Shown here: positions 6,087 to 59,569 of the stretch, one piece after another | How the letters are laid out: each line of letters begins with the position of its first letter | Position numbering within the stretch: position 1 is the stretch's first letter | Assembly: GCF_002261185.1 (NCBI RefSeq) | Contig: NZ_NEVQ01000012.1 | Coordinates: forward strand, 186,001 to 250,000 | Reading direction: 5' to 3' | Length of the DNA stretch: 64,000 nucleotides | Origin: Bordetella genomosp. 4 | GTDB lineage: Bacteria; Pseudomonadota; Gammaproteobacteria; Burkholderiales; Burkholderiaceae_B | Translations under genes and position numbers: made by a program | Notes under the pieces: model-generated | Told to the model about the DNA's origin: nothing | Databases searched by the model: none | What the model saw: only the letters and a program-made list of their open reading frames with translations

Positions 6087-6123
6087 GAGGGCGATGATCT
6101 TCCGCGGTCATGGTTCTTTAGGC

Positions 6124-6257
6124 GCCGGCGTCCGCCGTGTAAAAGGGGCACCGGCCCTATCGCACGGACTCGCCCCATGAGCAGGGGGCTCGGTCCGCTG
6201 CGCGGACTAAATCCGTGCTCTACGGGCCGGCGCCCCTTTTACACGGCGAACGCCGGC
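6124..6257. repeat. Large branched palindrome 1: A-type arms with B-type core
   Basis: Arms of 34 nt (6124-6157 and 6224-6257) pair with two mismatches and contain GCCGTGTAAAAGGGG and its complement. The 66-nt core, read on the minus strand, is nearly identical to the core of the 41926 element and closely related to that at 6461: a GCACGGA/TCCGTGC stem enclosing two hairpins (GTCCGC with GCGGAC, GCCCC with GGGGC). The arms instead resemble those of the 41673 and 59352 elements. It lies in the 587-base gap between orn and paaX, which are convergent. No coding signal in the gap; 6258-6460 holds nothing I recognise. Confidence 0.9.
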
Positions 6258-6460
6258 TCGCGCTGTCTTCACATTACGGGTGATCCCATCGGGACGGGTA
6301 TTGGCGGTGGTGACATGGCATCTGATTGAACGGTCGTCGCGTGCCATGTACGCCGCGCAATCATGGCGAAATGCGCCACCATGACGATCGTGGTGTGCCG
6401 CACGTCACGACAGCACCCTGGCCATCAACAGCCAGCAACGACGGCCTGCCACTAGTGTGA

Positions 6461-6596
6461 GTCCCTGCCGGGGGCCGGGAAGCCTCACCGGGCCGTAGAG
6501 CGCGGATTTAGCCTCGCGCAGCGAGGCCGAGCCCCCTGCTCGTGGGGCGAGTCCGCGCGATAGGCCCGGTGAGGCTTGCCGGCACCCGGCAGGGAC
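6461..6596. repeat. Large branched palindrome 2: B type
   Basis: Arms of 34 nt at 6461-6494 and 6563-6596 begin GTCCCTGCCGGG and pair with two mismatches. The 68-nt core has the same three-way layout as its relatives but with GCGCGGA/TCCGCGC in place of GCACGGA/TCCGTGC and a GCCTCGC/GCGAGGC hairpin in place of GTCCGC/GCGGAC. Just outside the right arm, GTCTAAATAGAGA is shared with the 41926 copy. The remaining 77 bases up to the paaX stop contain a short direct repeat (AGAGACACCGAT at 6605 and 6623). Confidence 0.9.
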
Positions 6597-6673
6597 GTCT
6601 AAATAGAGACACCGATTGCAAGCCAGAGACACCGATCGTCAGCACAACCCACACCCCACCCACCATCACCCGC

Positions 6674-15995: not shown

Positions 15996-16024
15996 TGCGG
16001 GCGGAGAGGCTTGCTATTGGACGT

Positions 16025-16182
16025 CGATGCGGGGCAGTGGCCGCGTTGGGGCTTCACGGAGTCGGTCGGCCGCCTGCGCGGCCGACACCACGTCGCTCGT
16101 CTCGTCCGGCCCCTTCGGGCCTACCTACGACGTCCGCTCGTTCGACTCCGAGGCGCCCCAACGCGGCCACTGCCCCACATCG
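16025..16182. repeat. Large branched palindrome 3: C type
   Basis: Arms of 40 nt (16025-16064 and 16143-16182) containing GGGGCAGTGGCCGCGTTGGG pair with four mismatches, and weaker pairing continues about ten bases outward. The 78-nt core folds into a nine-base-pair GTCGGCCGC/GCGGCCGAC hairpin with a CTGC loop and a second hairpin, ACGTCG/CGACGT closing over GGCCC/GGGCC. Sequence differs from the A and B elements, but the plan is the same. It lies between paaK and a convergent GntR-family regulator gene. Confidence 0.85.
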
Positions 16183-16359
16183 ACTCGCAATGTCTCAGAT
16201 TCTCTGCAGTGCTGGCACGAGTTGTGTGCTTGGCGTTTTTTTGTATCGGTATTGACAAGGAAGAAGATCTTGCAGGGTTGCGCTGACCGGGCGCCGACGG
16301 GCGCGCCCAGTCAACGCGATTGGGGTCGGCATGCAACGGGGCTTTTTTGGGTCACTGAG
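16183..16359. other. Non-coding remainder of the paaK-regulator gap
   Basis: These 177 bases between palindrome 3 and the stop of the GntR regulator hold no reading frame with a family match and no terminator I trust. A short GC-rich inverted stretch (GGGCGCC and GGGCGCGCCC near 16288-16310) could form a small hairpin. Confidence 0.4.
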
Positions 16360-41672: not shown

Positions 41673-41811
41673 GCCGGGGTCTGCCGTGTAAAGGGCATGC
41701 CGACCCATTCGGCCGGTCTGGACGCCTGCGCGTCCAGACTTTCCTTCGCCTGACACACCAGGCTCGGCGGCCTCAACGGGTCGGCATGCCCTTTACACGG
41801 CAGACCCCGGC
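41673..41811. repeat. Large branched palindrome 4: A type
   Basis: Arms of 34 nt (41673-41706 and 41778-41811), containing GCCGTGTAAAGGGCATGCCG, are perfectly complementary. The 71-nt core has GGCCG/CGGCC closing a junction with two hairpins: GTCTGGACGC with GCGTCCAGAC (CTGC loop) and GCCTG with CAGGC (ACACAC loop). Flanking sequence outside the arms (GGGGTCCTTAAACC on the left; GATTCCAC and CTGCAGGGGCGGTCGT on the right, to ~41871) is shared with the 59352 copy, so the full unit is about 215 bases. Confidence 0.93.
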
Positions 41812-41925
41812 TCCAGTGTTTTGGATTCCACAATGCTCCCTGCAGGGGCGGTCGTCGCATGTGGGTGACATTTGAGTGGTCATCGGCGATGGTCAGCTAG
41901 CAGCCGAGGGCAGTTGCTGCTGTGA

Positions 41926-42059
41926 GTCCCTGTCGGGGGCCAGAAAGCCTTGCCGGGCCGTAGAGCACGGATTTAGTCCGCGTAGCGGACCGAGCCCCCT
42001 GGTCATGGGGCGAGTCCGTGCGATAGGCCCGGCAAGGCTTTCTGGCCCCCGATAGGGAC
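41926..42059. repeat. Large branched palindrome 5: B type
   Basis: Arms of 34 nt (41926-41959 and 42026-42059), beginning GTCCCTGTCGGGGGCC, pair with a single mismatch. The 66-nt core is the B core: GCACGGA/TCCGTGC closing over GTCCGC/GCGGAC and GCCCC/GGGGC hairpins. It starts 114 bases after palindrome 4. Outside the right arm GTCTAAATAGAGA is shared with the 6461 copy. Confidence 0.92.
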
Positions 42060-58100: not shown

Positions 58101-59334
58101 GCCGGGCATGCTGAAAGAAAAGGCGCATCTGTTGCTGAAGTCGCTGCCGCAAAAGCTCAGGCGTCATTGTGTGCCGCTGCCTGATTACGCGGCCGGGTTC
58201 TATGATCGCTGGTACGACCGCATGGCGGATCCGCAACGCGGGCTGGTGGATGCCTTGATCGCCGACATGTGGGATCAGGTCCAGGTTCGTCCGGCTACCG
58301 GCGATTTCAAGCTGGAGACCTTGCCTGCCCATTTGTTCATGAATTTCAAAGTGGTCGACGAGCACGGACGCATGCTCGCGGCGGGCCGCAATCTGGCGCA
58401 GTTGAAGGCCGAGTTCGGCAAACAGGCGCAAGCGACGTTTCAGCAGTTGGCAGTGCGCGATGCGGGTGTTGCTCAGGCCTTGGCGCATGAGAATCTGACC
58501 TCGTGGTCTTTTGGTGCGTTGCCGGAGATCATGGAGATCAAGCGCAAGGGGCAATCGGTCATTGGCTATCCGGCGCTGGTGGATCGTGGCACGCATTGCG
58601 ATCTGGATGTGTTTGACGATCCCGATGAGGCCAAGCGCCATCATCGTGCGGGGTTGTTGCGGTTGTTCCGGATCGGCTTGCGTGAGCAGGTGAAGTTTCT
58701 GGAAAAGAATTTGCCTGATCTCACCAAGATGAGCATGCTGTATATGAACTTGGGCACGCAGGAGGATTTGCGTGACCAGATCATTGACTGTGCGTTGGCG
58801 CAGGCTTGCTTGACGGATCCGTGGCCTGCTGATGAACAGGCGTTTGAGGCGCGGCGGCAAGATGGCAAGGGGCGGTTGGGGCTGTTGGCTCAGGAGGTCG
58901 CTCGGCTGTCGCATGCGATTCTGACCGAGTATGCAGCGCTGCAACGCAAGCTGCCTCAGGCTAAACCGCATGCGGCGGCTTATGCGGATCTGCAGCAGCA
59001 GATCGGGGCGCTGGTGCCGAAGTGGTTCATTCGCGATACGCCGTATGCGCATCTGACGCATTTTGCGCGCTATCTGAAGGCTGCTGTGGCGCGTATCGAT
59101 AAGCTGCGGGCTGATCCGGCTCGGGATGCGCGGTTGATGTCTGATATGGCGCCTTTGCTTACGCAATATCAGCGTGCGAGGGCGGCGTTGAAGGGGGCTT
59201 CGGATCCGGGGTTGGATGAGTTTCGGTGGTTGTTGGAGGAACTGCGGGTGGCGTTGTTTGCGCAGGAGCTGCGGACGCCTGTGCCGGTTTCGGTGAAGAG
59301 GTTGATGAAGGCTTGGGAGTCGTTGCGACGGTAG
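55183..59334 (+). CDS. hrpA: ATP-dependent RNA helicase HrpA
   Basis: A DEAH-box helicase of 1383 residues, of the HrpA type involved in ribosome and mRNA processing. Walker A GETGSGKT is at 113-120, the DEAH box IIDEAHERSLNIDF around 208-221, and the second RecA domain holds VLATNVAETSLTVPGIRFVIDSGLARIKRYSW. The N-terminal ~75 residues are a Gly/Lys/Glu/Arg-rich low-complexity region with four tandem 13-14-residue units. A ~30-residue acidic insertion lies near residues 262-290. ATG at 55183 with AAAGGA upstream; a start 32 codons earlier has no ribosome site. Divergent from argA. Confidence 0.95.
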   Translation: MSEVSPPPARGKTPGKREQGPRDEHASGKREQGQRRDAPSSGKPEQAPVRDAPPSGKRQPGRRDALRPSAADKAPPPERPIPVITYPEDLPVSARREEIARAIASHQVVIVSGETGSGKTTQLPKICLELGRGRQRMIGHTQPRRLAATSVAKRIAEELNTPLGEIVGYQVRFNDRTGPNASVKLMTDGILLAESQRDPLLRRYDTLIIDEAHERSLNIDFLLGYLKQLLPRRPDLKVIITSATIDAERFARHFASIEGAAGSPEVASAASADERNGSEDPGQDHTGLRLAPVIEVSGRLYPVEVRYRPVRDEADEDEASGSNKSNRERLAGDEERDLIDAIVDAVDECARHGPGDVLVFLPGEREIRESAEALRKHHPAGTEVLPLYARLSQAEQEQIFHPRTNARRIVLATNVAETSLTVPGIRFVIDSGLARIKRYSWRNKVEQLRIEPISRASANQRAGRCGRIGPGVCIRLYDELDFNGRAAFTDPEVLRSSLASVILRMKSLKLDDIEQFPFVEAPPGRAIADGYHLLQELGAIELVSASDDDEANEASRTGSSYVLTRTGHELAKLPVDPRIGRMILAAREQQCLAEMLIIASALSVQDPRDRPMAEREAAEAAHAKFADDKSEFMSFLKLWRWYGEQVQHKASQRKLVALLRQNFLSPIRLREWHDVHTQLSALVGEQGWRVNQTEATYEQLHLALLSGLLGNIGFKSDEGGYYRGARDIRFHIHPGSRQAKKGGRWIVAAELVETTRLYARCVARIEPVWLERVASHLLRRNWSDPRWEKKAGQVVANERATLYGLIVYAGRRVQYGRVNPQHARELFIRQALVPGEIDTRLPFVAHNRKLIAGIEKLEHQARRPDILVDDELIYAFYDRQLPEGISQTASLEKWVHGLDKTAAAALMLTRDELMRHEAAGVTTDVFPKQVEWQGVVMPLDYHFEPGSPRDGVTLSVPLFALNQIDPARCEWLVPGMLKEKAHLLLKSLPQKLRRHCVPLPDYAAGFYDRWYDRMADPQRGLVDALIADMWDQVQVRPATGDFKLETLPAHLFMNFKVVDEHGRMLAAGRNLAQLKAEFGKQAQATFQQLAVRDAGVAQALAHENLTSWSFGALPEIMEIKRKGQSVIGYPALVDRGTHCDLDVFDDPDEAKRHHRAGLLRLFRIGLREQVKFLEKNLPDLTKMSMLYMNLGTQEDLRDQIIDCALAQACLTDPWPADEQAFEARRQDGKGRLGLLAQEVARLSHAILTEYAALQRKLPQAKPHAAAYADLQQQIGALVPKWFIRDTPYAHLTHFARYLKAAVARIDKLRADPARDARLMSDMAPLLTQYQRARAALKGASDPGLDEFRWLLEELRVALFAQELRTPVPVSVKRLMKAWESLRR
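55222..55386 (+). repeat. Tandem 42-base coding repeat in hrpA
   Basis: Four consecutive units (55222-55260, then 55261-55302, 55303-55344 and 55345-55386) encode SGKREQ-like, 14-residue repeats with the pattern SGK-x-EQ-xxx-RDAP. The first unit has 13 codons. Copies are diverged in the third positions as well as in some residues, so the repeat is not a recent expansion, although length variation between strains would be expected. Confidence 0.85.
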
Positions 59335-59351: not shown

Positions 59352-59569
59352 GCCGGGGTCTGCCGTGTAAAGGGCATGCCGACCCATTCGGCCGGTCTGG
59401 ACGCCTGCGCGTCCAGACTTCCCTTCGCCTGGTGCGTCAGGCGGGGCGGCTGGGCAAACTCGCTCCGCTGCGCTGCGCTCAGACATGCCCAGCCGACTTC
59501 CCCCCGCCTGACACACCAGGCTCGGCGGCCTCAACGGGTCGGCATGCCCTTTACACGGCAGACCCCGGC
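59352..59569. repeat. Large branched palindrome 6: A type with extra hairpins
   Basis: The 34-nt arms (59352-59385 and 59536-59569) are identical to those of the 41673 element and perfectly complementary. The 150-nt core contains the same GTCTGGACGC/GCGTCCAGAC hairpin and the GCCTG/CAGGC hairpin with ACACAC loop, plus ~79 bases inserted between them holding a second GCCTG/CAGGC hairpin (GTGCGT loop) and a long CGGCTGGGCA/TGCCCAGCCG hairpin. Flanks shared with the 41673 element extend to ~59338 and ~59621. It starts 17 bases after the hrpA stop; hrpA and queH are convergent. Confidence 0.93.

Follow-up and report, generated by a model that had tools for sequence, protein, structure and literature searches.

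Large branched hairpin elements of Bordetella genomosp. 4, mostly placed between convergent genes, keep their fold on one strand and are flanked by a polar base-composition footprint

The window analysed here, a whole stretch of 64,000 nucleotides from Bordetella genomosp. 4, holds six large palindromes, all of which exist and fold as a sequence-only reading of this DNA had described them. That reading gave five of the six units arms of exactly 34 nt, which stands for the units starting at 6124, 6461, 41673, 41926 and 59352, with zero to two mismatches each; the bounds of the sixth had to be corrected to 16023-16184, with 42-nt arms and four mismatches. None of the six overlaps a gene call made with a simple gene finder, in keeping with the non-coding and intergenic nature assigned to them. 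No palindrome of such size arose in 400 kb of third-order Markov sequence, and two were found in an equal length taken from other stretches of this genome. The six palindromes are not explained by chance and, since only two were found in the other stretches, their spread in the genome is uneven. They had been taken as one family with a shared plan. This holds at the level of a superfamily, but within it two related families have to be told apart, family I (the unit at 16023) and family II (the other five), and the usual arrangement is an inverted pair of units.

At the first locus, as seen from their fold and from the short-core alignment, a family II unit with A arms and a short core (6124-6257, its folding, inner-to-outer strand being the minus strand) and another with B arms and a short core (6461-6596, folding on the plus strand) form an inverted pair around a spacer without assigned strand (6258-6460). 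The outer motif of the first, GGTTCTTTAGGC (6112-6123, plus strand), is conserved directly outside units of both families, and that of the second reads TCTCTATTTAGAC towards the unit (6597-6609, minus strand). The family I unit at 16023-16184 (folding on the minus strand) has no partner; its outer motif is GCTATTGGAC (16011-16022, plus strand), and on its inner side lies the inner half of a family I element, matching family I pairs (TCGCAATG, a T run and GAAGATCTTGCAGGG; 16185-16307, no strand), with the partner unit missing. A second family II pair is made of a unit with A arms and a shortened long core (41673-41811, folding on the minus strand), a spacer (41812-41925, no strand) and a unit with B arms and a short core (41926-42059, folding on the plus strand), whose outer side lies towards the start of a gene. 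The last unit (59352-59569, folding on the minus strand) is solo, with A arms and the full long core, which carries four hairpins; the unit at 41673 shares its arms and core ends and is 79 bp shorter, as by an internal deletion. The strongest third-position skew that we have seen is that of the gene preceding the 59352 unit, in its final 300 codons (58432-59331, plus strand).

In this genome, we delimited 94 units in 81 stretches (the window and 80 others), a few overlapping pairs being dropped from this set. Searches with the 41926 and 41673 units listed 31 and 14 matches, and the 16023 element gave at least 86 (the best 40 of 125 candidates scored), several of which may belong to one element. 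The units, single or in inverted pairs, span 130-230 nt, with arms of 30-43 bp and a branched core. In family I, inverted pairs about 430-550 bp apart predominate, and their inner side bears a second hairpin that combines varied arms with conserved stretches in several genera. Family II often forms pairs about 60-200 bp apart, with short and poorly conserved spacers, and its two arm types, A and B, are each found with a short (~66 nt) or a long (~150 nt) core, arms and cores combining freely. In both families a conserved motif of the GTTCTTTAGRC, GTCTCTATTTAGAC or GCTATTGGAC type precedes the unit on its outer side, and a TCRCRGT-like sequence comes next on the inner side. The two families are tied together by mixed inverted pairs, in which a family II and a family I unit are adjacent (L002, 2583-3026; L024, 2370-2959). 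A pseudoknot between the loop of the second hairpin and the downstream GGCCCTGC was considered and, by eye, fails in some copies. Many contigs of this assembly (G000) stop within a family I element (L051, L055-L060 and further contig ends), so the assembly has been broken by the repeat and the true copy number is probably higher.

The fold is upheld by compensatory changes. Across the 24 family II units with a short core, the three-way junction recognised from the first copies comprises 52 pairs, 38 of them changed on both sides, and 99.7% of the cells are paired, against 36-40% in a control with the partners slid by one to three columns; for family I, the prediction from 37 units comprises 54 pairs, 41 of them with double changes. 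Between one family II unit and another, the outer arms differ at a mean of 15.8 of 34 positions, and between the family I units of relatives at 14.0 of 30; the arms are locus-specific in sequence with their complementarity kept, and the core, with its loops and junction, is conserved between species. The few mismatches that remain in the arms are polar. Read from the outer to the inner side (outer-to-inner strand), those of this genome and the genus amount to 52 A·C, 9 G·T and 22 others (45 A·C and 8 G·T as distinct events), and 59 units of other genera add 36 A·C and 8 G·T. On the reverse, inner-to-outer strand, the combined mismatches are hence 88 G·T/U versus 17 A·C (p ~1e-12 if independent), and since they are G·T/U there, and not A·C, it is on this strand that pairing has been kept. 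The inner-to-outer strand has the better fold in 36 of 37 and in 23 of 24 units and keeps purine-rich internal loops between the covarying helices; one core pair of family II is most often G-U.

The units also have a preferred placement relative to genes. The outer side lies towards a gene 3' end in 81 of the 94 units, at a median distance of 58 nt, and 28 solo units have a gene 3' end on that side. Convergent arrangements account for 42 of the 56 intergenic regions that bear units, the others being tandem (12) or divergent (2), against a background of 55 convergent pairs among 334 gene pairs in control stretches; in the tandem regions the two unit orientations are even (9 versus 8).

Comparison with eight congeners indicates that the elements have been gained, as two loci of the window carry no unit in the orthologous stretch of any of them: the 16023 unit and the 6124/6461 pair, at whose site G001 has a shorter palindrome of another kind. 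At least four of the eight carry an additional gene at the position of the 6124/6461 pair (6087-6673), so that the gain of the pair went with the loss of a gene. At the 59352 locus, G003 carries a family I pair at that gene end, and the other seven congeners are free of units for 700 nt (with palindromes of a different kind in G005); the L009 locus bears no unit in any of the seven evaluable congeners. Near-identical family I pairs (90-95% in many cases) lie between different genes of the genome. The earlier suggestion of a mobile miniature element or a structural module is thus supported in both its parts, the first by the empty orthologous sites and the second by the pairing on one strand. 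As a separate observation, the two units of the pair at L123 (G002) have their near-identical arm partners at separate places in G003 (L128, L131), as if a rearrangement breakpoint lay inside this family I pair.

No reading frame of their own was noticed in the elements, nor any transposase frame between the paired units in the stretches of this genome, and no target duplication is evident by eye in 19 family I pairs. Mobilisation by a RAYT/Y1 transposase was rejected for lack of any PF01797 match at E 0.01 in this genome, a control being positive in 6 of 14 known genomes. In the case of G078, six pairs (L163-L168, five of them chosen for being wide) enclose a gene that was rejected as an autonomous form: it encodes an IS256/Mutator transposase (PF00872, among the scanned proteins), is similar in all six and occurs in both orientations and at different places. 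It is therefore a guest, and the spacers seem to be a haven for this type of insertion sequence in that genome. In L163, one IS256/Mutator-type copy interrupts another. An origin from a retron or group II intron was likewise discarded, the single RVT_1 gene of this genome sitting in a unit-free stretch with surroundings like those of a diversity-generating retroelement. This sole reverse transcriptase (L243; G000:C6:386101-386754 and neighbours) lies next to an Avd-like protein and a further neighbour with a repeat-like variable C-terminus, and the gene set, recognised by eye from the translations, looks like such a retroelement.

Outside the units, G and T are enriched on the outer-to-inner strand, a bias that fades with distance. 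Over 81 units, the G and C fractions are.425 and.146 at 12-62 nt,.394 and.190 at 62-112 nt,.339 and.253 at 162-262 nt, and.303 and.291 at 962-1462 nt; downstream in the folding direction, the first 12-62 nt are correspondingly C-rich (.425) and G-poor (.146). The same bias, with a shorter reach, is found in 56 outer flanks from congeners and other genera, and it is also present close to the 13 units whose outer gene points away. In genes pointing at a unit, the skew lies mainly at third codon positions, with G3/C3 of.53/.15 in the last 20 codons, becoming even by codon 200; 104 convergent control genes give.38/.28. The gene before the 59352 unit has third positions of G66 T28 C3 A3 in its last 100 codons and a C3 of 0.00 in its last 50, versus.24-.36 in eight orthologues; for the L009 gene, C3 in the last 50 codons is 0.02, versus.30-.40 in seven orthologues, and a 310-aa gene shows G26:C9 against G9-23:C12-29 in eight. 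A 437-aa gene is not distinct from its orthologues, and the skew is thus missing from the orthologues at three of the four loci compared. The G003 orthologue has a unit pair 21 nt away and yet no codon footprint, so time since insertion, or another condition, must matter. On the inner side of 18 solo units, the sense strand of the genes leans to C (.41, G.31) with wide scatter, several genes leaning the opposite way. Summed over the 13 genes that point away, there is a shift (C 275, G 174), but the eight best-scored among them (C 152, G 124) are close to the control, so that a clear reach into the coding sequence is confined to genes pointing at the unit.

Several other origins of this footprint found little support. 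When the last 50 codons of the four genes are pooled, C>G changes number 15 and G>C changes 2 (2 and 10 in G007), and total synonymous change is 52 of 109 sites versus 43 of 100 in G007, a total that leaves hypermutation unsupported. A preference of the elements for inserting at G-rich gene ends is unlikely at the three loci whose unit-free orthologues have no skew. Resection from a double-strand break at each unit is disfavoured by the polarity around solo units, which tends to be the same on both sides and not mirrored. The flank bias itself would favour G·T mismatches on the outer-to-inner strand; the arms show the opposite, and their pattern therefore reflects a constraint on the inner-to-outer strand, the simplest reading of which is an RNA transcribed outwards from the spacer.

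All together, these results lead us to propose, with less than even confidence, that the elements are mobile and REPIN-like and act in RNA as one-way barriers to incoming transcription, both their transcription and the stopping being what we infer, whereas the data show the structure, the spread and the footprint. Each would be a non-autonomous mobile element laid out like a REPIN, with an outer tag, a hairpin, an inverted pair and a location at gene 3' ends, and built from branched hairpins of 130-230 nt. Within a convergent pair, the folding strand, read outwards from the spacer, would correspond to the transcript of the far gene, and on this RNA the unit may work as a Rho-type terminator or as a structure forming 3' ends, halting transcripts from the far side before they could enter the adjoining gene in antisense. 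The near gene's own transcript would pass the unit, so that a pair could shield both genes. Rho loads on C-rich, G-poor sequence, which the RNA just after the unit would resemble. The adjoining gene would then see almost only sense transcription, which might give rise to its sense-strand skew. Some observations fit this proposal poorly. A barrier on the transcript of an upstream gene would predict a preferred orientation in tandem regions, which the 9 to 8 split does not show; the skew beside the 13 units with genes pointing away and the C-leaning genes on the inner side of solo units indicate that the footprint is not simply one of sense transcription; and the G003 orthologue without footprint is hard to reconcile with a barrier.

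The main rival is a single-stranded-DNA mobile element, which we regard as an appreciable possibility, if an unlikely one. Here the inner-to-outer DNA strand would fold and be recognised, nicked or excised by an enzyme, as in IS200/IS605 and REP elements, and the opposite strand, left single-stranded, would collect changes at C. G·T is tolerated better than A·C in DNA hairpins too, so the mismatch bias suits this reading as well, and it would explain the polarity on both sides of a unit: the outer-to-inner strand is G+T-rich outside the unit in either gene orientation, with the same lean on the inner side of solo units. It also agrees with elements that move without a reading frame of their own. 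Against it, this genome has no Y1 transposase, and the G-U pair that is commonest at one core position and the conserved internal loops look RNA-like.

The remaining alternatives are less probable. Selfish palindromes with a functionless structure, in which template switching rewrites one arm from the other and so keeps complementarity during drift, would fit arms that differ at about half of their positions between units and are still complementary, as well as the G-richness of the outer arms, which is like that of the outer flank; we consider this improbable, as template switching would leave neither strand with an excess of G·T over A·C, against the 88:17 bias seen, and the core, with loops and junction, is conserved between species. 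Slightly less probable again is a pair of non-coding RNA genes transcribed divergently from promoters of their own within the spacer, an idea to which the inner sides of family I, with their second hairpin and conserved stretches in several genera, lend some substance; no promoter-like sequence is seen by eye at the centre, however, the spacers of family II are short and poorly conserved, and many units are solo. Ordinary bidirectional intrinsic terminators would suit the placement behind genes and between convergent ones, but are very improbable, as a T run directly after the hairpin is missing in both directions and the size, branching and lineage-specific gain are foreign to that class.

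The elements extend beyond this genome. The covariance-model check proposed with the original observation has been run and recovers more copies with covarying pairs, here and in other genomes. Family I is present in eight of the nine genomes of the genus, this one included, often as inverted pairs behind convergent genes, and of the 121 genomes of the taxonomic family its model matches 23, which belong to 10 of 43 genera; at most 22 candidates were scored per genome, so that copy numbers are lower bounds. A scan of 84,980 genomes with a core pattern, which is stricter than the model and says little on other genera, gave 60 stretches, only from Bordetella (petrii, genomosp. 2, genomosp. 7 and sp. 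02P26C-1) and Achromobacter. In the Rfam check, also suggested at the outset, there are no matches at the gathering score in the window, and the seven matches in ten stretches (E up to 1) are all below gathering scores. Nor was any match found by blastn, with one query each, against plasmid and phage collections, or any description of such elements among the open-licence papers searched, and this superfamily of large branched hairpin elements is apparently undescribed so far.

These findings bear on two general questions about REP-like elements: why they lie between convergent genes, and whether it is as RNA or as DNA that they act. The present elements are long enough for the strand question to be answered from mismatches alone, and their footprint offers an evolutionary read-out of what happens beside them. 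If they are one-way barriers, they would be mobile elements whose spread provides genes with natural insulation against antisense transcription; should they be single-strand DNA elements, a mobilising enzyme is still to be found in Bordetella and Achromobacter. It is conceivable, and we put it forward as a doubtful possibility, that they represent a class of mobile structured RNA that is new: valves for one-way transcription, arranged in pairs and present in at least ten genera, that hold an intricate fold on one strand with arms specific to each locus, where the exclusion of antisense transcription (or an exposed DNA strand) may imprint a polar signature up to ~1 kb into the adjoining gene.

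MITEs and the enterobacterial repeats of the RU/ERIC type are short, non-coding and dispersed, with inverted ends and strong folding, traits that our elements share; in those described here, no target duplication is evident by eye (19 family I pairs) and no parent transposase was noticed between the paired units of this genome. In the genus itself, a palindromic repeat with GGTGTCTGACTCC...CAGACACC arms is common in congeners (L091, L095, L096, L097, L108-L110, L124, L127, L132, L240, L247), and in L124, L127 and L132 it is found within a family I element or takes the place of part of one. This repeat may be identical with the Bor repeat as published, or a larger relative. The Bor repeats of Bordetella, 26-30 bp long according to PMC1590033, are likewise palindromic and near genes; our units are several times longer.

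The closest parallel is with REP, REPIN and BIME elements of the GTAG and CGTC super-families, which, in the parts of PMC3733652 available to us, share with ours tagged hairpins, inverted pairs, a position behind or between convergent genes and a dispersed occurrence. According to the same text, REPs are 20-40 bp long and tied to RAYTs, the CGTC repeats are tied to no known transposase, and a CGTC-tagged REP has an unpaired CGTC tag beside an 8-9 bp stem. Here, units of 130-230 nt have arms of 30-43 bp, a branched core and no RAYT; the arms are locus-specific and the folding strand is fixed. There is no GTAG tag at the foot of the hairpin, the outer motif being TTCTTTAGRC or CTATTGGAC, and although the foot of family I shows CGTC, its GTC is paired within the 30-43 bp arm. 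The TIR repeats of TIRYT transposases (PMC3733652, same portion) are alike in being longer, partly self-complementary and often paired; they are defined by the tyrosine transposase that they flank, of which none was found in this genome, and the comparison is by description only. The size, the branched core, the fixed folding strand and the footprint are not described in the available portions of PMC3733652 and PMC1590033. The general layout, with dispersed units behind genes and in inverted pairs, is that of REPs and, set apart by size, tag and transposase, we file the elements as REP-like in layout.
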